A stretch of DNA of 64,000 bases from Clostridia bacterium. Lineage in GTDB: Bacteria; Bacillota; Clostridia; Oscillospirales; Acutalibacteraceae. The position numbers and the translations under genes were made by a program. Shown piece after piece: positions 6,580 to 23,259 of this stretch (position 1 is its first letter; each line of letters opens with the position of its first letter). The stretch spans positions 305,806 through 369,805 of the forward strand of contig JAFRMR010000013.1 in the NCBI GenBank assembly GCA_017430535.1, written 5' to 3'. The notes below the pieces were generated by a model. That model was not told the origin of the DNA. It ran no database searches and saw nothing but the letters and a program-made list of their open reading frames with translations.

Positions 6580-6608
6580 AACCGCCGGACAGAATATGTC
6601 CGGCGGTT
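6580..6608. terminator. Intrinsic terminator between convergent operons
   Basis: An 11-bp perfect stem (AACCGCCGGAC / GTCCGGCGGTT) with loop AGAATAT. A T-rich tract follows on the right, and A-rich sequence on the left suits the minus-strand operon ending at 6627. Confidence 0.85.
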
Positions 6609-6626: not shown

Positions 6627-8075
6627 TTATTCAGCTGTTTCCGCTTGAGCCTCGGCTTCTCTCATTGCAGCAAGTTCGCTGTGAACTCCCTCAAGCTTTT
6701 TCTTTGAAAGGTTGTAGCCGAAGAAGAGAATCACTGCCATAAGGGCAAGCATAATTGCGGGTACGATTGTTGAAATATCGTAGAGCTTTGCAAGCACATC
6801 ATTGCTTAAAGCTATGCCGTTCTTTGAAAGCTCGCCGTCGTAGTTTATCCAGGCAAGCAGAGCGTTAAGACCTACGCCCGCAAGGGTCTGCCCCAGTTTT
6901 CTTGTGAAGGAGAAAACGGCGTAAGCCATGCCCTCTTCTCTTTTGCCTGTTTTGTATTCGTAGTAATCAATGGTATCCATAACCAGGGCCCATACTTCAA
7001 GCACCAGGAAGGTCTGACCAAGGCCGGAGAGGAATGTAAAGGCAAGGAATACATAGGGGTTAAGGGCCAGGGGAGTGCCCCTGAGGGCAAAGAGCACAAT
7101 ATTTGCCACGGCGGCAAAGGCCATACCCACGGCGCAGAGCTCTTTTTTGCCGAATTTCTTTATCAGCTTGTTCATTACGGGTATGAATATTGCCATAGGT
7201 CCGTAGGTGCATATTGTTACAAAGGCATACATACCCGGTTTTCCGTAATAATCCGTGAAAAGGTATGTATAGGTTGACTGATAATAAAACTGGAAAGCAA
7301 TAAGCAGCATTGAGGCGATTGAAAGGGTTACGAAAGCCCTGTTGCCGAAAAGCTCTTTTATTGTGGTAACGGCGCTGTAGTCTTTGTCCTTGAGCTTTTT
7401 CTGGGGAGCTATGCGCTCTTTTGTCATCTTGTAGTGCAGGAAGTAAACGAATACGGAAAATACGGAAAGCGCAAGCACACACCAGAAAAGCTTGGTTTCG
7501 TCAAGGGCTTTTATATCGGTGCCGTTTTCATATTTACCGGTTACGGTGTAAACAATCATGGGCAGTATAATGGTGCCGGGCAGGCCGCCTACGCCTGCTC
7601 CTATGGAGCGCCACATTGAGAGGGAGGAGCGCTCAAGTTCATCATCCGTAACAACTGCGGCAAGAGAGCCGTAGGGAATATTTACAGCCGTATACATCAT
7701 ACCGTAAAGTATGTAAGTGATATATGCGTAAACAAGATATTTTGTTTCGGAAAGGCCGGGGATTTTGAAAAACATCAGGGCCGCCGAAATAGCCAGAGGG
7801 ATTGAAAATCCGAGAATCCAGGGTCTGAACTGTCCCTTTGGGTTTGGCTTTCTGGACTGAATGAATGCGCCCCAGAGGGGGTCGTTTATTGCGTCCCAGA
7901 TTCTTGCTATAAGAATAAGCACAACTATTTTTGCGGGGCTTATTCCGAGAGCGTCGGTGTAAAACTTATTCTGGAATGCGCCTATGAGGGAAAAGGTCAG
8001 CAGGCCGCCGGCATCGCCAAGAGCATAGCCGACCTTATCTTTGAACTTAATCCCGTGAGTCTGTAAGTTTTCCAT
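6627..8075 (-). CDS. GPH-family (MFS) sugar:cation symporter, probable sulfoquinovose or SQ-glycoside importer
   Basis: A 482-residue, twelve-helix transporter of the glycoside-pentoside-hexuronide:cation symporter family (MelB-like MFS). The N terminus KDKVGYALGDAGG and the early RIWDAINDPLWG motif (family consensus R-x-W-D-A-x-x-D-P-x-x-G) identify the family. Other GPH marks are the charged IQSRKPNPKGQFRPWIL loop and a mid-protein MTKERIAPQKK loop. E. coli YihO and YihP, in the sulfoquinovose locus, belong to the same family, so import of sulfoquinovose or sulfoquinovosyl glycerol is inferred from context. It is the last gene of the six-gene operon, 14 bases after the TSUP gene, with AGGAG upstream of the ATG. 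Sequence alone does not fix the substrate. Confidence 0.85.
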   Translation of the reverse strand: MENLQTHGIKFKDKVGYALGDAGGLLTFSLIGAFQNKFYTDALGISPAKIVVLILIARIWDAINDPLWGAFIQSRKPNPKGQFRPWILGFSIPLAISAALMFFKIPGLSETKYLVYAYITYILYGMMYTAVNIPYGSLAAVVTDDELERSSLSMWRSIGAGVGGLPGTIILPMIVYTVTGKYENGTDIKALDETKLFWCVLALSVFSVFVYFLHYKMTKERIAPQKKLKDKDYSAVTTIKELFGNRAFVTLSIASMLLIAFQFYYQSTYTYLFTDYYGKPGMYAFVTICTYGPMAIFIPVMNKLIKKFGKKELCAVGMAFAAVANIVLFALRGTPLALNPYVFLAFTFLSGLGQTFLVLEVWALVMDTIDYYEYKTGKREEGMAYAVFSFTRKLGQTLAGVGLNALLAWINYDGELSKNGIALSNDVLAKLYDISTIVPAIMLALMAVILFFGYNLSKKKLEGVHSELAAMREAEAQAETAE

Positions 8076-8089
8076 ACTGTTCTCCTGTC

Positions 8090-8833
8090 TTATTTTATGA
8101 TAAGTGATATTCCGCTTATTAGCATAAGTAGGTATGTAAGCTGAAGGAATACATTTCTGCTCATCTTTTTATATATCAGGTTGCCGGTGATAAGGGCCGC
8201 TGCAAGCACCGCAACGCTTATCAGCGTAAGCTTTATGGTGGGCGGCGTAAAGTATCCTCCCCTTATATCCGTAAAAGCTATTATGCCGTTAAGCAGAATC
8301 CAGCAGGCGGAAAGGGTGCCCCTGAATTCATCCTTATCTTTGAGCTTTGCGTTGGCGTAGGTCACAAGCAGGGGACCGCCGCACACAAACATCCCGTGCA
8401 CTATGCCGCTTATTACAAGCAGCAGAGCCGAAACGGCGGCAGGCAGCTCCTTATCCTCTTTCTTCCTGTAAAACTTCACGGCGTTCATTACCGCAAATAT
8501 TATCACGATAATGCCCAGGGTTTTATAAAGCAGAGAGGCGTTGTTTTCAACATAGGTTTTCAGGTAAAAACCCGCCAGCATGCCGGCAATCATAATCAGA
8601 ACTATCTTTACAAGCTCTTTCAGGTTGATTTTCTTAAAGGCAAATATTACCACCCACACCGAGGCCAGAAGCCCCAGCGCATTCAGTATGGGTTTTGCCA
8701 CATTGTAGCCCACCAGCATTATGGAGAAGGGCATTGCCAGCACCGTTCCCGCAAAGCCGGTTATGCACTGCACAATGTTGGTCAGGAAAACAACCGCAAG
8801 AAACAGCAGCTCTTTCAGCGTCAGAAACTGCAT
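8090..8833 (-). CDS. TSUP (TauE/SafE) family permease, probable C3-sulfonate exporter
   Basis: A 247-residue membrane protein with about eight hydrophobic helices of the TauE/SafE sulfite/organosulfonate exporter family. Typical marks are two repeated halves with glycine/proline-containing segments: TNIVQCITGFAGTVLAMPF near residue 25 and VISGIVHGMFVCGGPLLVTY near residue 150. The start ATG lies inside the end of the isomerase gene (13-base overlap), implying translational coupling. TSUP proteins accompany sulfoglycolysis genes in several bacteria, where they are thought to export the C3 sulfonate end product. Here that would be dihydroxypropanesulfonate if the reductase acts on sulfolactaldehyde. 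This role is contextual inference. Confidence 0.8.
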   Translation of the reverse strand: MQFLTLKELLFLAVVFLTNIVQCITGFAGTVLAMPFSIMLVGYNVAKPILNALGLLASVWVVIFAFKKINLKELVKIVLIMIAGMLAGFYLKTYVENNASLLYKTLGIIVIIFAVMNAVKFYRKKEDKELPAAVSALLLVISGIVHGMFVCGGPLLVTYANAKLKDKDEFRGTLSACWILLNGIIAFTDIRGGYFTPPTIKLTLISVAVLAAALITGNLIYKKMSRNVFLQLTYLLMLISGISLIIK

Positions 8834-10155
8834 ACTTCTATACCCAGCAGATTACCGAGAATCTTTATTTCCTCCGAAATACCGCCCATTGCCACCACAA
8901 AATGGGGCTCCCAGCCGTCTTTCACAGCTTTATTGATAATACCGGAGCAGGGGTTAAGGGTTTCAACAACAATGCTGGTGCCGAAAAACTGGCGGGGCTT
9001 GTCAAGGGCTTTTCCCTCGGCGCAGAACAGGCGGTAAGTGCCGTCCGGTTTTCTGCCTATTCTGAATATGGTTACTTTCGGTTCCTCTTTGCAGCCGAAT
9101 TCAAGGGTGGGCCCTATTTTACGGTTGCAGTGAACCCCGGCGCAGGCGCCGGTATCCTCCCTTGCAAGGGAACAGGGGGCCATACCGCAGTGCCAGAAGG
9201 TTATTGTGTTTTCGCTTTCGTCAAGGGAAACAGGGTCGCCGAAAAAGGCGCTCTTTTTTGTAAGCTTTGCGGCAATATACATTGAAAGGGCTCCGTAGGC
9301 GTCCGCCTCGCAGGCGCATTCAACGCCCAGGTCATTGAGTATGCCCAGAACCGAGCAAACAGGCGTGCCGAAGGCGGTGAAGAAATCCGGCCAGCATCTG
9401 CTGGCAAGGGCTTCTATTCCGTTCTGTTCGGTATATTCTTTATACGCCTTATACAGCCTTGCAAAGTCTTCAACATTCTTTTCTTCTATCTTTTCAAGGC
9501 CGCAGATTCTTTCTTTTGCATCCTCAAGATAAGGGGCAATTTCATCTGCTGTGTAGGATTTTGCATTTTCAATAAGTTCTCTTGCCTCTATGGAGCTTAA
9601 AGTTACGCCGAAAGTTTTCAGCATATCCGCATCAAGCGCTCTGCCGAAACCGAAGCCCTGTGGTGTGTGACCCACCTGAAGTAGCTTCAGTGAGCGCATC
9701 TGCTTCATAACCTTAACGCAGGCAAAAACTGCCTTTATCTTTCTCTGTACCTGCTTTTCATCGGGGGAGCCGAAAACATATTCAAATTTTCTGCCGAATT
9801 CATTTATGATGTTCCCTGCGGAGAAAGCCCCTGTAAGGGAGTTAAGGCGAAGCCTTGTGCCGTCAATTACGGGCTCTCTCAGGGTCCAGAGAAGTACCGG
9901 GCGGTCAAACCGCCTGAGCACCTCGCTCATATATGCCGCATTTGCAAAGGTAAGGTTCTGCACTATAAGCAGATCCGGCTCAATGCCCTCAAGGTAAGCT
10001 GAGAGCTTATCGATTGTAAGGAGCATTTCATCGGGAACATAAGTATTCTCGTCAATATTTTTCAGCAGGTTTATGCTTTTTCTGAATTCGGCCTCAGCGC
10101 TTTCAAGGTGAAATGTGCCTACGCCTATGGGGATATATGCTGCTCTGAAGTTCAT
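8821..10155 (-). CDS. sftI: L-fucose-isomerase-like protein, probable sulfoquinovose isomerase
   Basis: A 444-residue cytosolic protein related to the C-terminal half of the L-fucose/L-arabinose isomerase family. The family metal site is suggested by CACEADAYGALSMY (Glu283, Asp285) and a later TFWHCGMAPCSL (His322). The N-terminal half has the Rossmann-like strands LLIVQNLTFANAAYM and PVLLWTLREP. In the transaldolase sulfoglycolysis pathway of Firmicutes an isomerase converts sulfoquinovose to 6-deoxy-6-sulfofructose. This is the only isomerase-like gene in the operon, so that role is inferred. The ATG at 10155 follows the reductase stop by three bases, with GAGGAC upstream. The symbol follows the Bacillus sft naming and is tentative. 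Confidence 0.7.
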   Translation of the reverse strand: MNFRAAYIPIGVGTFHLESAEAEFRKSINLLKNIDENTYVPDEMLLTIDKLSAYLEGIEPDLLIVQNLTFANAAYMSEVLRRFDRPVLLWTLREPVIDGTRLRLNSLTGAFSAGNIINEFGRKFEYVFGSPDEKQVQRKIKAVFACVKVMKQMRSLKLLQVGHTPQGFGFGRALDADMLKTFGVTLSSIEARELIENAKSYTADEIAPYLEDAKERICGLEKIEEKNVEDFARLYKAYKEYTEQNGIEALASRCWPDFFTAFGTPVCSVLGILNDLGVECACEADAYGALSMYIAAKLTKKSAFFGDPVSLDESENTITFWHCGMAPCSLAREDTGACAGVHCNRKIGPTLEFGCKEEPKVTIFRIGRKPDGTYRLFCAEGKALDKPRQFFGTSIVVETLNPCSGIINKAVKDGWEPHFVVAMGGISEEIKILGNLLGIEVCSF

Positions 10156-10158
10156 TTG

Positions 10159-11022
10159 TCAGTCCTCTATGTTGTTTACTATTTTGTAAGTGGCGCGGAA
10201 ATCGCCCTTGCCCATACCCATTTCCATTCCTTTGTCAAAAACAGCTTTGCAGTTCTGAAGCCCGGGCATTGCAAGGCCGGCTTCTTTTGCAAGGCGCTGG
10301 GCTATGCCCAGGTCCTTGTGCTCGTTTTCAAGTGAAAATGCAGTATTCCAGTTGTTGTTTTTCAGGTTTTCCTTCTGGGACTCCAGGTAGAAATTGCCTG
10401 CTCCGCCGTAGGAAACGGCAGTCGCAAAATCATCTATGGATATGCCCAGTTTCCTGGCAAGGCCCAGGGTTTCGTTTACGCCGTTCTGTATCTCCGCAAC
10501 AAGGGTGTTGTGGCATATTTTCATCGTGATGCCCATGCCGTTGTTGCCCATGCGTATAACATTGCAGCCCATATATTTCAGTATGGGCTCTATCACGGGG
10601 TAAAGCTCCTCATCGCAGCCCACAAGCACGCCCAGTGTGCCGTCAATGGCGGCGGGCTTTGATTTCACAACCGGAGCATCCGCCCACTGCGCGCCTTTTG
10701 CTTTAATCATTTCGGCGCACTCAAGGGATACGGAAGGGTCGATTGTGCTCATATCAATGCAGATTTTTGATGAGTCAATGTAAGGCAGAAGCTCGGTGTA
10801 AACACCCTTTACGTGCTCGGATTTCGGCACCATGGTTATAATTACATCCGCGTTCTTTGCCACTTCAATATTGTTTTCGCAGGGAACCGCTCCCAGAGAA
10901 GCCAGCTTTTCCACCTGAGATTTGTTAAGGTCGGAAACATAAACCGGCTCATTGTGCTTTTTAACTATGTTGGCGCTCATGGATTCTCCCATGATGCCGA
11001 GACCTATAAAACCTATTTTCAT
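10159..11022 (-). CDS. sftF: Beta-hydroxyacid dehydrogenase family reductase, probable 3-sulfolactaldehyde reductase
   Basis: A 287-residue NAD(P)-dependent dehydrogenase. The dinucleotide-binding motif GLGIMG is at residues 7-12, the substrate-loop consensus MSTIDPS near 91-97, and the catalytic lysine in GMGITMKICHNTL is Lys168 with Asn172. E. coli YihU, which reduces sulfolactaldehyde to dihydroxypropanesulfonate, is in the same family. YihU's sulfonate-contacting VGRTSANA segment is VVKSKPAAIDGT here, keeping a basic residue (Lys for Arg). The start at 11022 was chosen over a GTG at 11031 because GGAG lies eight bases upstream and the protein then begins at the usual MKIGFIG. The gene overlaps the operon flow just after the transaldolase stop. 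Regenerating NAD+ is its likely benefit in fermentation. Confidence 0.75.
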   Translation of the reverse strand: MKIGFIGLGIMGESMSANIVKKHNEPVYVSDLNKSQVEKLASLGAVPCENNIEVAKNADVIITMVPKSEHVKGVYTELLPYIDSSKICIDMSTIDPSVSLECAEMIKAKGAQWADAPVVKSKPAAIDGTLGVLVGCDEELYPVIEPILKYMGCNVIRMGNNGMGITMKICHNTLVAEIQNGVNETLGLARKLGISIDDFATAVSYGGAGNFYLESQKENLKNNNWNTAFSLENEHKDLGIAQRLAKEAGLAMPGLQNCKAVFDKGMEMGMGKGDFRATYKIVNNIED

Positions 11023-11027
11023 AATTC

Positions 11028-11714
11028 TCACTCCGTTATTGTATTATCCCAGGCGCTCTGGAATTTAGCAAGGCCGAAATCGGTGTAGGGGTGGTAGAAA
11101 CTGTCTTTGAACACCTGAAGGCCGGCAGTTACTATATCCGCACCGGCTACGGCGCAGTCAACTATCTGCTTGCCGTTTCTTACTGCGGCGCAGATAATCT
11201 GTGTTTCTCCCAGGAAACCGTAATTTGCGTAGGATTCAACTATATCGCTTATATACTGCACGCAGTCCTCGCCGCTGTTCTCTTTCCAGCCGATGAAGGG
11301 GGAAACAAACAGTGAGCCGTTCTTTGCGGCTATAAGGGCCTGGGAAGCGGAGAAAACAAGGGTAAGGTTAGTTCTTATGCCCTCTTTTTCAAGGCGTCTT
11401 GCGGCAGTGATACCGGGAAGAGTGCAGGGGATTTTGATTACAAAGTTTTTGCACATGCCCGCAATTTTGCGTGCCATTTCAACCATTTCATCCGCATCGT
11501 CAAGGTGGGGGTTGATTTCAACAGAAATGGGGAAAACACCCCAGCCTTCAATGCCTTTTTCCTTAACAAAATCCGCAAGCTCTGCTATTACGGTGAAGAA
11601 GGGCTTGCCGCTGTTCATAATATGGTTGGGGTTTGTAGTGATACCGTCTATGCCGAAAGTATCATAGGCCTCTCTGATTTCATCGATTTTTGCGCTGTCA
11701 AGAAAATATTTCAT
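11028..11714 (-). CDS. sftT: Small transaldolase/fructose-6-phosphate-aldolase family protein, probable sulfofructose transaldolase
   Basis: A 228-residue protein of the short transaldolase (FSA/TalC) class, a TIM barrel using a Schiff-base lysine. Visible marks are MKYFLDSAKIDEI at the N terminus, the ITTNPN motif at residues 25-30 and the active-site segment FVIKIPCT with Lys94. In the sulfo-transaldolase pathway described in Bacillus and in gut Clostridia such as Eubacterium rectale, this class transfers the C3 unit of 6-deoxy-6-sulfofructose to glyceraldehyde-3-phosphate. That yields fructose-6-phosphate and sulfolactaldehyde. The start ATG overlaps the glycosidase stop by four bases (ATGA). 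The role is inferred from neighbours; a generic fructose-6-phosphate aldolase is the alternative. Confidence 0.75.
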   Translation of the reverse strand: MKYFLDSAKIDEIREAYDTFGIDGITTNPNHIMNSGKPFFTVIAELADFVKEKGIEGWGVFPISVEINPHLDDADEMVEMARKIAGMCKNFVIKIPCTLPGITAARRLEKEGIRTNLTLVFSASQALIAAKNGSLFVSPFIGWKENSGEDCVQYISDIVESYANYGFLGETQIICAAVRNGKQIVDCAVAGADIVTAGLQVFKDSFYHPYTDFGLAKFQSAWDNTITE

Positions 11715-13720
11715 ATTCTTTTTACCTCCATGGCTTTTTTGATTATTTCAAGCACCTCCGGTGAGGCGTTTTTTCTGTAAAATACTGCGGGCTGACCGAC
11801 GGGGGCTGCAACCCTGTGTGTGCCGCCGGCATATTCCTCGCCGGTTGCAAGCCTTACCCATTCATCCTCCGGCAGGTAAACCTCCCGCATAACCGCGCCC
11901 GGTCTTATTACCGGGGCTACCAGTATATCCCTGCCCAGCAGATATTCGTAGCATTCCCTGTAGGCTTGTTCCTCATCATAGTAGAAAAACAGCGGCCTTA
12001 CAACCCCTACGCCTTTTTTTGCATTGTATTTAACCGCATCTTTGATGTAGGGCTTAAGGGCGGTATGTATTCCTGCCATAAGAGTCTGATGGTTCAGCAC
12101 CTCTTCATTTGCGTCAAACTGAGCATTCAGGTCCGGGTTGTTGCCTTCGTGGCTTCTCATAACGGGAGAAAAGGCCGCAAGCTCGCACCAGCGCATATAG
12201 AGCTCCGTATCTCTGCAGAGTTTTCCGAAGGTGGTATAGCCGCCTATATCGGAATGTGAAAGGCCGAAACCGCTGCAGGTAAGTGAAAGCATTGCCGGTA
12301 TAACCGAGGGCAGGCCGTTATCGTATGAAAAGTCCACATGGTTGTCGCCGTTCCACATCATTGTTGAGTAGAGGGGAGTTTTTGTGTGGCCCGCTCTTGT
12401 GAAGAACATTATTTCGCCAAGCTTGCCGCTTTCCTCTATGGCTTCTCTGTTCAGCTTTGCCCAGAGCCCCGGCCAGGTGTTGTGCACCAGCTCAGCGCTT
12501 TCTCCGCTGTAAAGCACCGCATCTGTGGGCAGGTATTCGGCAAAGTCCGCCATCCAGCCCGCAAGGCCGAAATCAATCATGTTTTTCTTTATTATTCCCT
12601 TGAGCCACTCGTAGGCTTCCGGGTTTGTAAGGTCAACCATAGCGGCGGGGAAGGTGGTAATGGTTACATAGTAATCCTCACCTTTTTTATTCTTTACGCA
12701 GTACCCCTTTGCCGTGGCTTCCTTATACAGGGGCTTTTCAATGGCAAGGAAGGGGTTGCAGTAGCCCAGAACCTTTATATCCGCTTCGGCAAGGTCTTTT
12801 ATCGCTGTGTCAAGGCCGGGGTACAGCTCGCTGTCCCACTCCCAGTTCCACATAAGCTGTTTTCCGAAAGTTGTGATTCTTCTGCCTTCCCAGTCCTGAA
12901 TCCATATACCGGTAACATCCATACCGTGGTCAAGGCATTTCTGCAGCTTTTCAAACATAATATCCGTGCCGCCCTGAATACCCAGGATTGCGCCGTTATA
13001 AACCCAGTCCGGCAGCTCAGGCTGGCGGCCCAGAACCGATGAAAGGTTTTCAAGCACCTCTTCAAAATCGTTTCCGAAGCCCATGGTGAACCCGGCTACG
13101 CTGTCAAATTTAAGCGTGTGCCTGTCCGGGGCGGTAAAATCAAATTCGCACCTTGCGTTGCAGTCTGAGTGGAAAAAGTATTTTCTGCTGCTGATAAATG
13201 TGGGCTGAGCGTAATAGGTTTCGTAATCCGAGAACTTATCTTTATGGGTGCTGTGCTTCATACCCAGAGTAACCCTTGCAATTTTTTTGGAAATCACCCG
13301 GCTGTTCTGGTGCTCCGCAACCCACACATTAACCTTCTGTCCTCTCAGGTCAAATTCAGTAAAGGTTTCCCCGGTGCCGTAAACATGCTCGTTTGAAAGG
13401 GCGGGTATGCTGAAAACAAGCCGGTTGTAGTTCTGCAGCCCGGTGAGCTTCACATTAAGCAGGTTCTTTTTTACCTCAATAAGGGCTTTTCCTTCAGTCA
13501 GGGTTATTTCGGCTTTGCTCCCGGAGGCTTTTATATCCTTTACGGATATGGCCTTATCCGAAAAAATCTTTTCGCTGATTTTGAAACTGCCCCGGTCCAT
13601 TTTGAATTTGTTTTCTCCGTAGCCGGTGTGCAGTATTTCATTGCCTTTGATAATACTGAAGATAACTGCATCATCCTTCAGTATCTGCAGTTCTGTTCCG
13701 TTCAGGTTTAATTTAAGCAT
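11711..13720 (-). CDS. yihQ: GH31 sulfoquinovosidase, YihQ-like
   Basis: A 669-residue GH31 glycosidase that closely resembles E. coli YihQ (678 residues), which releases sulfoquinovose from sulfoquinovosyl glycerol. Aligned by eye to YihQ from memory, the nucleophile is Asp392 (WMADFAEYLPTD) and the acid/base Asp459 (MMWNGDN), 67 residues apart as in YihQ (405/472). YihQ's recognition residues Q262, Q288, R301, W304 and Y508 correspond to Gln249, Gln275, Gln288, Trp291 and Tyr495, so the arginine is replaced by glutamine. The start at 13720 is preceded by GGAGG; a GTG four codons upstream overlaps that site. It is the first gene of the operon, 30-40 bases after a consensus promoter. No signal peptide is seen, so it acts in the cytosol. 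Confidence 0.88.
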   Translation of the reverse strand: MLKLNLNGTELQILKDDAVIFSIIKGNEILHTGYGENKFKMDRGSFKISEKIFSDKAISVKDIKASGSKAEITLTEGKALIEVKKNLLNVKLTGLQNYNRLVFSIPALSNEHVYGTGETFTEFDLRGQKVNVWVAEHQNSRVISKKIARVTLGMKHSTHKDKFSDYETYYAQPTFISSRKYFFHSDCNARCEFDFTAPDRHTLKFDSVAGFTMGFGNDFEEVLENLSSVLGRQPELPDWVYNGAILGIQGGTDIMFEKLQKCLDHGMDVTGIWIQDWEGRRITTFGKQLMWNWEWDSELYPGLDTAIKDLAEADIKVLGYCNPFLAIEKPLYKEATAKGYCVKNKKGEDYYVTITTFPAAMVDLTNPEAYEWLKGIIKKNMIDFGLAGWMADFAEYLPTDAVLYSGESAELVHNTWPGLWAKLNREAIEESGKLGEIMFFTRAGHTKTPLYSTMMWNGDNHVDFSYDNGLPSVIPAMLSLTCSGFGLSHSDIGGYTTFGKLCRDTELYMRWCELAAFSPVMRSHEGNNPDLNAQFDANEEVLNHQTLMAGIHTALKPYIKDAVKYNAKKGVGVVRPLFFYYDEEQAYRECYEYLLGRDILVAPVIRPGAVMREVYLPEDEWVRLATGEEYAGGTHRVAAPVGQPAVFYRKNASPEVLEIIKKAMEVKRI

Positions 13721-13756
13721 GGCCGCCTCCACAGATTATATTAGGTCATCCTTTTA

Positions 13757-13785
13757 ATTATAATATAGACTCCGCTTTTATTCAA
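13757..13785 (-). promoter_or_regulatory. Promoter of the sulfoquinovose operon
   Basis: On the minus strand, TTGAAT (13785-13780) is followed by a 17-base spacer and a perfect TATAAT (13762-13757). The predicted start of transcription is near 13750, about 30 bases before the ATG. This lets the six genes be expressed separately from the upstream glycosidase. Confidence 0.7.
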
Positions 13786-13799
13786 GGAGAAAGTTACAA

Positions 13800-16469
13800 T
13801 TATAATGCCTTTGCAACAATCCGTCCCTCTTTCACACTGCCCGGTATTGTGATTTCAACAGCTCCGCCGGTGCGCTTTATGTAATCCGCAGGTTTACTGT
13901 CAAGTGTAACGCTGAAACCGGCCGCTTCGTTAAGAGCAATGATAACGGTATATTTTTCGCTGTTTCCGAAGTATCTGAATTTAACATCCGCGCAATCCCC
14001 GCTGTTTTTCTGCTCATCAATTCTCAGGTCCAGCCCTCCGGTAACCGTGCCCGGTCTGTAATAGGCGTTTGCCCAGATACATATGGGCGCGGAAAGGCCG
14101 CCGAAGTTGTGGAACCATCCGCCTCTCATTGTCTTTATGCCGAAGCACTCGTATGTATTGTAGGAAAAATCGGTTTCCGCCTTCCACATATCAAGGGCGC
14201 GGTTGGCTATTTCAAAGGCAAAATCGCCCTCGCCGTTATCCAGCATTGTTTTCCACATAAACCACTGGTGGCTCATCCACACATTGCCGTTCCAGTATCC
14301 GTCATCAAAGTAGTATGAGGCGGAAATATCCACGGCGCTCAGGCCTGCCGGTGTCCACAATTCATCCGGATTTTTGAGGTGGGATATCAGCTTCTGCTTT
14401 CTCTCACCGCTTACGGCGCCGGCCACAAGAGGATACACTCCGTCAAAGCCCTTGTTATAGTTTTCGCCTTCAACGGTCCTCATAATGCCGCATTTCCCGT
14501 CTTTGTCATAGACGGTGTACCCGAAGTAGCCGCTTTCCTCATCCCAGGCAAGGCGGTTCAGTGCCTCTTCCGACTGTCTGATATCTTCATCGTAAATCTT
14601 TATATCTTCCGCTTTGCCCAGATAGTCCGCCGCCATTTTCATTATTTTTCCGCACCTTATTACCTGGGCGGTGGTAAGGCAGGGGCAGGAATATTCCTGA
14701 GCACCCCGCCTGATCATTTCAACCTGAGCAGGGTAATCATCCATGCCGGAGCAGGAGTACCAGTAATCATAGGCCGTAAGCAGGCCGTTGCCGAATTTTG
14801 CGAAGGTGGAGCCGTATGCTCTGCCCCTGAGGAATTCATAATACCTGCGCATTTTATCATAGAGCCCGTCAAGGCTGTGCTTATCCGCGCAGCGGTTAAA
14901 CAGCTCCAGGTATTCATAAAACTGCGTGGGCACAAGGGAGCCGTGAAGCAGGAAGCAAAAGTCCTTGTTATCCTCTTCGCACAGGTATGTTTCAAGGGCA
15001 TATCTGCAAAGTTCTTTTGAGTATTCCAGCAGTCCCAGGCCTATAAAGCCGCTGTCCCAGGTATAGAAGCTGTCCCACCTCTTGCCCGGGGCGTGGTGCA
15101 CAATGTTTTCCCCTCTGCGGTAAACAGGGTAAACCGCATTTGTAAGCAGGGTGGATTTAAGCACATTTACGGAGAATTCGTATTTCTTTCCGTCTTTGTT
15201 CAGCGGAATTCCCGCAGCTTTTTCTTTGGCCGCCGAGTATATTTTTTCACACTCATCCTGCGAAAGGGGAGCATATGCTTCGCTTGCAACCAGAGCGTAC
15301 TCAATATGGCTCTGACCGGGCTCAATAAAAATTGATTTTATAATGGGGTTCACATAGAAGCCCGTATCGCTGTGCTTTCTTTCAAAGGAGCGTGAGAATG
15401 TTTCGCTCAGGCCATCATAGGTAGGGTCTCCGTTTGAAAGCCGGTTTACAAGGGCATCCTCAAGGCACCCGCTTTCAAGCTTCCTGAGCCGTGTATTTTT
15501 ATTGAATGTTTCTATGGTGTATTTGCACCCGTTTTTATAGTCAAGGCCGAAAACGAAGCCGCCCTCCTGTTTTTCACGGGAGGTGATTTCGGGTATGTAA
15601 TCTCTCTGTACGGTTTTAACGTTTATTTTGCTGCCTTTTTCAATCACGGCAATAAAGTCAAGCTCAATGCCCCCTTTGCCGCAGCTTATGAATTCCGGAT
15701 TATCGCAATAAGGCAGGCGTGTTATGCTGAGTTCAGTGCTTGAGGGGAAGGTTACCTCTCTTCCGTTCATAAGGAAAAGGGCGTCCCCTTCGGTTACTGT
15801 TCTGTACCTTACGGCAAGTTCCGGGTCTGCAATACCCGAAGAGGTGAGCTTATATGAAACCCTGTCTCCCTTTTCACAGCCGAAGGGCTTAAGGTTAAGG
15901 AAAGGCACATGGGAATTATCGCATCTGTCACCCAGGCCGCAGTCCATATAAAAGCTGCTGTCCCTGAACATTCCCTTATACATTCCGTCCGGGTTTTCCA
16001 TATCCCAGGGCCTCGGCACGGCGTATTCATAGCATTCGTAATCGTTGGCGTTCAGGATTATCGCATTTTTATCCGCGCATATTTCTGTTTTGCTGAAAAA
16101 CGGATACTCCAGAGCCCCGAAAAGATTCATCAGGCAGTTCTGCGACAGCTCCGTATTGTTTACAAATTCGCAGCGCATAAGGCTTGCGTTTTCATTGATT
16201 TTTGAAAAGGATATATCGGCGTAAACCATATCCTTCCACATCAGCTCATACCTGTAGCGGTAGTATGAGTAATCCGGCGCGCACTCCATAAGGTGGTAAG
16301 ATGAGGGCACCGTTACATTTGGCACCGGCACGGATGAATTCCATATTGTGGGGTGCACAATAAAATCAAAACGGGCCCCTTCGCCGGAAAGAGCCGGAAT
16401 AATATGGGAAATACCCATATATTTTTTTGAGTAGGGACCCCAGAGAGGCATTTTCATTTTATTTTCCAT
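13800..16469 (-). CDS. (alpha/alpha)6-barrel glycosidase of the GH63/trehalase-like clan, substrate unknown
   Basis: An 889-residue protein with an N-terminal beta-rich region (about 1-430) and an (alpha/alpha)6-barrel catalytic region (about 430-810). Motifs fit the GH63/GH37/MGH-like clan: GKRWDSFYTWDSGF (463-475), SGMDDYP with Asp577/578 as candidate acid, DDGYWNGNVWMSHQW (722-736), and NTYECFG with Glu774 as candidate base followed by GGWFHNFGGLSAPI. No signal peptide is present, so it is cytosolic. It has its own promoter and ends about 80 bases before the sulfoquinovosidase gene. Known relatives cleave alpha-glucosides, mannosylglycerate or glucosylglycerate. An SQ-linked glycoside is an attractive but unproven substrate. 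The ATG follows GGGGAG. Confidence 0.75.
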   Translation of the reverse strand: MENKMKMPLWGPYSKKYMGISHIIPALSGEGARFDFIVHPTIWNSSVPVPNVTVPSSYHLMECAPDYSYYRYRYELMWKDMVYADISFSKINENASLMRCEFVNNTELSQNCLMNLFGALEYPFFSKTEICADKNAIILNANDYECYEYAVPRPWDMENPDGMYKGMFRDSSFYMDCGLGDRCDNSHVPFLNLKPFGCEKGDRVSYKLTSSGIADPELAVRYRTVTEGDALFLMNGREVTFPSSTELSITRLPYCDNPEFISCGKGGIELDFIAVIEKGSKINVKTVQRDYIPEITSREKQEGGFVFGLDYKNGCKYTIETFNKNTRLRKLESGCLEDALVNRLSNGDPTYDGLSETFSRSFERKHSDTGFYVNPIIKSIFIEPGQSHIEYALVASEAYAPLSQDECEKIYSAAKEKAAGIPLNKDGKKYEFSVNVLKSTLLTNAVYPVYRRGENIVHHAPGKRWDSFYTWDSGFIGLGLLEYSKELCRYALETYLCEEDNKDFCFLLHGSLVPTQFYEYLELFNRCADKHSLDGLYDKMRRYYEFLRGRAYGSTFAKFGNGLLTAYDYWYSCSGMDDYPAQVEMIRRGAQEYSCPCLTTAQVIRCGKIMKMAADYLGKAEDIKIYDEDIRQSEEALNRLAWDEESGYFGYTVYDKDGKCGIMRTVEGENYNKGFDGVYPLVAGAVSGERKQKLISHLKNPDELWTPAGLSAVDISASYYFDDGYWNGNVWMSHQWFMWKTMLDNGEGDFAFEIANRALDMWKAETDFSYNTYECFGIKTMRGGWFHNFGGLSAPICIWANAYYRPGTVTGGLDLRIDEQKNSGDCADVKFRYFGNSEKYTVIIALNEAAGFSVTLDSKPADYIKRTGGAVEITIPGSVKEGRIVAKAL

Positions 16470-22671: not shown

Positions 22672-23259
22672 GTGCCCAAAAAAGATTCTCACAACACAAA
22701 AAACAAAATCATCAGCGCCGCCTGGTCTCTGTTTTATAAATACGGCTTTGAGCGCACCACCGTGGAGGATATAATTTTCCTTTCCTCCACCTCCCGTGGC
22801 TCGTTCTACCATTACTTCGGCGGCAAGGATGATTTGCTCAATACCCTTTCCGATTTGTTTGACAGCCGCTATGAGCAGCTCAGCGAAAAGCTTACGGATG
22901 ATATGTCTGCTTTTGAAAAGCTGATGTTCCTCAACCGCGAGCAGTTCGCTATGGTTGAAAACAGCGTGCCCATGGATCTGCTGGCAAGGATGTATTCCTC
23001 CCAGCTCACTTCCTCCGGCAGCAGGAATCTGCTGGACCATAACCGGGTTTACTATAAAATGCTCAGGCAGATTGTTATTGAGGGCAAAGAAAAGGGCGAA
23101 TTTATCCCCGGGGCGTCCGTCAATGAGATTGTCAGGGCCTACGCTATGTGCGAAAGAGCCCTTATCAGCGACTGGTGCCTTTCAAACGGCGAATATTCCC
23201 TGTGCAGGGAAGGGGAGGTTATGCTTCCCCGTCTGTTCAGAGGATTCATAAATAAATAG
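22672..23259 (+). CDS. TetR/AcrR family transcriptional regulator
   Basis: A 195-residue DNA-binding repressor-type protein. The N-terminal TetR helix-turn-helix is clear: KNKIISAAWSLFYKYGFERTTVEDII followed by SRGSFYHYFGGKDDLL (residues 8-53). The C-terminal ligand domain is divergent, as usual. It starts with GTG at 22672 behind GAGGTGG. The gene lies nine bases after the UPF0210 gene and before the secreted beta-helix protein, so it may control this operon or the secreted gene. The ligand is unknown. Confidence 0.9.
   Translation: MPKKDSHNTKNKIISAAWSLFYKYGFERTTVEDIIFLSSTSRGSFYHYFGGKDDLLNTLSDLFDSRYEQLSEKLTDDMSAFEKLMFLNREQFAMVENSVPMDLLARMYSSQLTSSGSRNLLDHNRVYYKMLRQIVIEGKEKGEFIPGASVNEIVRAYAMCERALISDWCLSNGEYSLCREGEVMLPRLFRGFINK

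Follow-up and report, generated by a model that had tools for sequence, protein, structure and literature searches.

The 64,000-nt stretch of Clostridia DNA analysed here (the window, from genome G000: 2.41 Mb in 27 contigs, 96.9% complete) carries six adjacent minus-strand genes, from position 13720 to 6627, between a TTGAAT-17-TATAAT promoter-like site and a strong terminator-like hairpin. Read 5' to 3', their order is SftG-SftT-SftR-SftI-TSUP-GPH. Our results make it very probable that these genes constitute one transcription unit for the sulfo-transaldolase (sulfo-TAL, also SFT) pathway of sulfoquinovose (SQ) utilization, SQ being the sugar of the plant sulfolipid, in a derived lineage devoid of the ROK regulator gene, of its operator and of SftX. 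The pathway itself is known and the operon is a variant of it. An initial annotation of this DNA had described six adjacent minus-strand genes behind one promoter, and all the open reading frames (ORFs) were found where it had placed them. The features of the locus are as follows.

13757..13785, minus strand: near-consensus promoter-like site TTGAAT-17-TATAAT
11711..13720, minus strand: SftG, GH31 YihQ-type sulfoquinovosidase homologue; ATG at 13720 with GGAGG ahead of it (the ORF list gives GTG at 13732)
11028..11714, minus strand: SftT, TAL/FSA transaldolase; Lys94 is the Schiff-base lysine by family
10159..11022, minus strand: SftR, beta-hydroxyacid dehydrogenase family protein predicted to reduce 3-sulfolactaldehyde
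10156..10158: SftR/SftI junction, 3 bases; position of sftX (DUF4867) in relatives, gene missing here
8821..10155, minus strand: SftI, sulfoquinovose isomerase, fucose-isomerase-like
8090..8833, minus strand: TSUP (TauE/SafE) permease, predicted exporter of dihydroxypropanesulfonate (DHPS); PF01925, 74.6 bits, cut-off 32.6
8076..8089: TSUP/GPH junction, 14 bases; position of the ROK gene in 21 of 80 related loci (eight-gene order), gene missing here
6627..8075, minus strand: cation symporter of the GPH family, predicted to take up sulfoquinovose or sulfoquinovosyl glycerol; TIGR00792, 299 bits, cut-off 231
6580..6608, minus strand: intrinsic-terminator-like hairpin after the last gene, with a 12-pair, 8-GC stem (both strands scored)

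The gene content, homology and order of the operon, and its promoter-like and terminator-like sites, are thus plain from the DNA. Searches of Pfam and NCBIfam returned MFS_2/GPH, TauE/SafE, SftI, beta-hydroxyacid dehydrogenase, TAL/FSA and GH31 YihQ-type, in agreement with the six identities first proposed, and the expected Lys94 of the transaldolase is present in the context FVIKIP. One junction size is refined: the ATG at 11022 is a more likely start for SftR than the GTG at 11031, and the SftT/SftR junction would then be a 5-base gap instead of a 4-base overlap.

The sulfo-TAL assignment passed the sequence test set in the initial annotation. SftT scored 307 bits against the solved SF-TAL of Bacillus megaterium (BmSF-TAL, 8bc3) and no more than 159 against the best generic transaldolase, while the sole NCBIfam match of SftI was the SftI model NF048012 (410 bits). 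SftI is 63-77% identical to the isomerases of 80 related loci, and 63-64% to those of L003 and L004. The motif DAPVVKSKPAA of SftR was found in 56 of 60 sequences, and the protein shares 31% identity with YihU. The TSUP permease exceeds the PF01925 cut-off and is a candidate DHPS exporter. Finally, SftG passes the cut-off of the YihQ family (PRK10426, 780.5 bits against 553); its identity to YihQ is 47% over the aligned positions, and Asp392 and Asp459, the nucleophile and acid/base by alignment, are kept.

Some scores weigh against this assignment. SftI falls short of the equivalog cut-off of NF048012 (410 against 700 bits). This cut-off was passed by none of 245 genomes of the order, and four comparators from sulfo-TAL loci score 388-414 bits; because of this, the model seems too narrow for Clostridia. 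SftI is not assigned to the equivalog. SftR reaches 152 bits on the NCBIfam sulfolactaldehyde reductase model, whose cut-off is 348, and its best solved match is a hydroxymethylglutarate dehydrogenase; the family is right, and sulfolactaldehyde is its predicted substrate. Regarding the end of the pathway, the only glycyl-radical enzyme of the pyruvate formate-lyase (PFL)-like class found in the genome is pyruvate formate-lyase itself (1128 bits, cut-off 994). No DHPS lyase or dehydratase of this class was found in the 96.9%-complete genome, the DHPS-dehydratase-type models giving 148 and 133 bits against a cut-off of 1000. Since the sole PFL-like enzyme found is pyruvate formate-lyase, the pathway likely ends with DHPS export. 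A SqwGH transketolase, of the sulfo-transketolase or bifurcated pathway, is not among the six operon genes; the genome beyond the operon was not searched for it. The description of the operon as complete must be qualified: the four core enzymes are present, but SftX is missing and SftG does not carry the Arg of solved sulfoquinovosidases.

The enzyme activities, the substrate and the flux are those predicted by homology, and on this basis the pathway would run as follows. The GPH symporter would import SQ or sulfoquinovosyl glycerol, from which SftG may release alpha-SQ; SftI would convert SQ to sulfofructose, and SftT would transfer the dihydroxyacetone part of the latter to glyceraldehyde-3-phosphate, yielding fructose-6-phosphate and sulfolactaldehyde. 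Fructose-6-phosphate would enter fermentation, while SftR would reduce sulfolactaldehyde to DHPS, to be sent out of the cell by the TSUP permease. The lineage appears to have lost SftX, a cupin, as well as the ROK regulator of the locus and the probable operator of that regulator, and the promoter probably runs without a local switch.

The nearest known systems are the sulfo-TAL pathways of Bacillus (Priestia) and Eubacterium rectale, with which the window shares SftG, SftI, SftT, SftR and an exporter, SftT being closest to BmSF-TAL. The pathway described in PMC8397734 has four core genes, DHPS as its product and cross-feeding that yields hydrogen sulfide; SftX, the usual accessory protein, is not one of these four. 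In contrast to these systems, the window operon has no SftX/DUF4867, no ROK gene and no operator, and E. rectale does have SftX (PMC11968277). The gene order also varies: L100 ([Clostridium] aminophilum) and L113 have T-R-X-G-TSUP...I-ROK where the window has G-T-R-I-TSUP-GPH. The yih operon of E. coli, which encodes the sulfo-Embden-Meyerhof-Parnas (sulfo-EMP) pathway, likewise has a glycosidase of the YihQ type and, with 31% identity to SftR, a reductase of the YihU family; here, however, cleavage would be by a transaldolase and not by a kinase plus aldolase, the isomerase is of the fucose-isomerase type, and genes of the yihR and csqR types are not found in the window operon.

Scanning one genome per species yielded 541 SftI relatives, and the analysis covered the 80 best loci among them. 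Together with the window and L113 they make up 82 rows; L112 was excluded from the counts as it lies on the same contig as L109. Proteins shorter than 85% of the window protein were dropped, which left SftI in 82 rows, SftT in 55, SftR in 60 and SftG in 53. The six-gene order of the window is not a chance arrangement: of the 80 related loci, 13 repeat it exactly and two more do so with a single additional gene, making 15. In 21 loci the order is SftG-SftT-SftR-SftX-SftI-TSUP-ROK-GPH, identical to that of the window apart from two extra genes. In these eight-gene operons (L063, L109 and 19 others) sftX lies between sftR and sftI, the ROK gene between those for TSUP and GPH, and the operator upstream; the window has none of the three. 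Its SftI and SftT are 65-68% and 86% identical, respectively, to those of L063 and L109. Pfam searches of the relatives identified SftX as DUF4867 and the regulator as a ROK domain with a winged-helix region.

The absence of SftX extends to the whole window genome, which gave no DUF4867 match in a search that was positive in the control G145. Among 24 further genomes, DUF4867 was found in 3 of 3 SftX-containing controls, drawn from the 50 SftX-positive rows, and in 0 of 21 others, of which 17 represent the 22 SftX-less loci and four the SftI-only loci. As claimed initially, no regulator is encoded among the six genes. A tblastn search with three ROK queries, confined to the 64-kb window, revealed no ROK gene there. 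Across the 82 rows, with ROK absence scored by these queries plus gene spacing, sftX was absent in 23, present in 50 and unscorable in 9. ROK was absent from all 23 SftX-less rows, whereas among the 50 SftX-positive rows it was present in 38, absent in 5 (L056, L072, L079, L089 and L107) and unscorable in 7, that is, present in 38 of the 43 scorable. Not one of the 66 rows scorable for both genes had ROK without SftX, against five with SftX without ROK. L093, which has ROK and no visible SftX, was left unscored since just 3 kb are available upstream of SftI; L086, L091 and L108 were treated likewise.

The trees indicate that this pattern arose more than once. On the SftI tree the SftX-less rows require at least four changes, and their grouping as a single clade was rejected (approximately unbiased test, p 1e-6, with the group defined only once the tree was known). 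A tree of 55 rows built from SftT, SftR and SftI together requires at least three, with the window in a group of 13 rows of support 100. As SftX is present in the other main branches, loss is the simpler direction, and we infer that the changes are best read as losses. The association of SftX with ROK gave 2.8e-13 in Fisher's test over the 66 rows, which are related to one another. What speaks against a firm link is the small number of independent events: of three supported pairs, about two change the same way, none the opposite way and about one shows no difference, and a paired test has only 3-4 pairs, too few to reach significance. The link between ROK and SftX is thus suggestive, not proven. 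Two SftI columns, 271 and 327, track SftX loss weakly.

A palindrome, TTRATTAAC-N3-GTTAATYAA, precedes the first gene of most ROK-positive operons, in several of them just behind the -10 box, and is the probable ROK operator. At up to two mismatches it was found in 24 of 34 ROK-positive loci with visible upstream DNA against 1 of 22 ROK-negative loci, and never in simple shuffles of 60 sequences. On a genome-wide scan of nine genomes, the four ROK-positive ones (G145, G266, G267 and G268) each had an exact operator on the contig of the operon; in G145, which belongs to the same family as the window, this was the only exact place in the genome and lay upstream of the operon. Four of the five ROK-less genomes scanned, that of the window included, had no operator with two mismatches or fewer anywhere. 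Other observations count against this correlation. The operator was missed in 10 of the 34 ROK-positive loci, seven of them with another gene order (L083, L096, L099, L100, L101, L110 and L111) and three in which no gene is visible ahead of SftI (L086, L091 and L093); five of the ten have sites with three mismatches. ROK-less L107, which keeps SftX, has an operator with two mismatches, and ROK-less G247 has one such place outside its 21-kb locus. When reversed, the pattern also matches once per genome in G000, G145 and G266, so lone two-mismatch places, given the one in the window genome, may be due to chance. As a separate observation, L107 carries by eye a TetR-like gene at the position of ROK in its sister L103.

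Within the window, the 200 bases ahead of SftG contain neither an exact cre-type box nor a perfect inverted repeat (arms of at least 6, gap of at most 9). The ROK-less promoters of the window and seven clade members were examined for a cre site or an operator of another kind, and this idea was rejected: none of the eight has an exact cre box, and no replacement palindrome is common to them, the window and L065 having none and the other six short, unshared ones. The palindrome of L074, at -152, may be an operator relic, as its arms resemble the half-sites of the operator, though they stand further apart. Expression of the operon would probably start at the near-consensus promoter with no switch at the locus, and would lack induction. 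A repressor candidate is reported for the SQ clusters of Faecalicatena and Clostridium MSTE9 (PMC11659671).

The glycosidase also departs from the characterized type. At the position of YihQ Arg301, a sulfonate contact, the window SftG has Gln288. Arg occupies this position in E. coli YihQ (5aed), E. rectale SftG (6pnr), the Agrobacterium enzyme (5ohy) and 8r56, a solved homologue whose label is simply GH31; the catalytic Asp pair, the Trp and the Tyr of these four enzymes are kept in the window SftG. Because Gln288 replaces the Arg of the four solved enzymes, a point against the proposed activity, SftG is best called a sulfoquinovosidase homologue, and not a proven sulfoquinovosidase. The change is widespread: Gln is found in 46 of 53 SftG sequences and Arg in the other 7. 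The two types separate on one branch of support 100 (FastTree, with a long-branch warning), and further differences fixed in the Gln clade are Asn for YihQ Arg541, Thr for Glu369 and Pro for Tyr371; at position 293, where YihQ has Ile and the Arg-type Clostridia Lys, the clade has Arg. As the clade spans operons with SftX (32) and without it (14), the Gln type is not tied to SftX loss. In the rumen, yihQ richness is high, and 64% and 47.5% of the variants in two assays fall on a long branch with a Mariniplasma sequence, according to the data available in PMC13219744.

The Arg-to-Gln change could mark a GH31 clade of altered specificity, acting on a different sulfosugar or glycoside, as might be expected from its occurrence in 46 of 53 sequences on one side of a fully supported branch and from the accompanying fixed differences. 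We regard this as improbable, since Gln- and Arg-type operons have the same sulfo-TAL transaldolase, isomerase and reductase partners, and all 53 sequences retain Trp304, Tyr508, Gln262 and Gln288 (YihQ numbering) as well as the two catalytic Asp. A non-homologous enzyme encoded elsewhere, for example an aldose epimerase of the GalM type, might in turn make up for the loss of SftX by opening or anomerising SQ or sulfofructose, so that no function would have been lost. Two aldose-epimerase family genes lie elsewhere in the genome, uncatalysed mutarotation of alpha-SQ is slow (half-life of 50 min in 50 mM phosphate buffer, PMC5902678), and YihR replaces SqvB/SftX in some sulfo-EMP and sulfo-EMP2 clusters covered in PMC9594981. 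However, neither epimerase locus matches YihR (best E 0.12), both are on contigs other than that of the operon, and SftX-less operons have no consistent extra gene, two of them having one that is peptidase-E-like by eye; a substitute is a tentative proposal, less likely than not. It is also possible, though on balance we doubt it, that the operon is under an unlinked regulator and that the loss of the linked ROK gene was a mere relocation. A TetR gene lies 9 kb away (22672-23259) and the operon of the same-genus G283 itself appears split, and, as the ROK search covered the 64-kb window, such a regulator may be conceived of beyond it. Against relocation, the ROK-type operator is absent genome-wide at up to two mismatches, the three ROK queries found nothing in the window, and there is no perfect palindrome with arms of at least 6 upstream of SftG.

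A different explanation, which we consider unlikely, is that SftX is regulatory and not catalytic: it would make or remove the sugar form sensed by ROK, and would have been lost repeatedly after the loss of ROK and the operator. In its favour are the row counts given above, five with SftX but no ROK and none the other way round. Loss of the regulator first and SftX second predicts intermediates such as L089 (with SftX, without ROK), which on the concatenated tree is sister to a pair lacking both; the other losses have no such intermediate. According to PMC11968277, SftX is DUF4867, the structure of a homologue has been solved, and mutarotase and kinase assays were negative; it mentions sulfo-EMP and sulfo-transketolase clusters without SftX, and its abstract, Results and Discussion describe no sulfo-TAL cluster without it. 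SqvB was proposed to open SQ and most clusters contain it (PMC9594981). If the regulatory role were true, the window operon would be a natural double knock-out running without a local switch.

The 889-residue GH63/YgjK/trehalase-like gene at 13800-16469 (minus strand) was considered as an operon member and rejected; it has its own promoter-like site, TTGACA-16-TATACT. It gave zero matches at 1e-5 across the 80 related loci, has only distant solved relatives, and is kept in the three genomes of the genus that were searched, one of them without an SftI match. In these three genomes the operon is intact in the window; G283 has SftI-TSUP-GPH, with the other genes not within 19 kb, and G398 has no match. 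In the window's family, SftI was found at 1e-60 or better in 7 of 200 sampled genomes, the window's included, and several related loci have record titles that refer to the gut of goats, sheep, deer, reindeer, buffalo or horses. Four loci limited to SftI-TSUP-GPH (L044, L050, L051 and L059) were considered as a new pathway and this was rejected: SftT (82-83% identity) and SftG (65-66%) sit elsewhere in their genomes, and the operon is therefore split. At L157, the second site of a split operon, SftG is followed, past the place of SftT, by other genes, with no SftR at the locus. The extra gene between SftG and SftT at L042 (7727-8419) and L039 (5302-6003) is peptidase-E-like (S51) by eye. L090, L092, L097 and L105 have SftG-SftX-SftI with no SftT or SftR within the locus and are possibly sulfo-transketolase clusters. 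Two-piece matches, of SftG in L062 (2026-4050) and of GPH in L079 and L104, are possibly frameshifts or assembly errors.

In summary, three things look new: SftX and the ROK switch are repeatedly missing together, ROK-positive relatives have a probable operator, and the glycosidase is of the Gln type; a search of open-licence papers on DUF4867, sftX, ROK and sulfoquinovose returned no title on this variant, with no claim that it is unpublished. The absence of a regulator within the operon proved to be the most informative point of the initial annotation. For SftX (SqvB, DUF4867) a mutarotase or ring-opening role has been proposed and no activity was seen in the assays reported in PMC11968277; sulfo-TAL operons that several times lack SftX, each without ROK, offer natural knock-outs for the role of this protein. 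With the probable ROK operator, a defined site of regulation would be at hand for this pathway, which contributes to the formation of hydrogen sulfide in the gut. Furthermore, the Gln clade indicates that the sulfonate-binding rule derived from solved sulfoquinovosidases may fail for a large group of gut enzymes.

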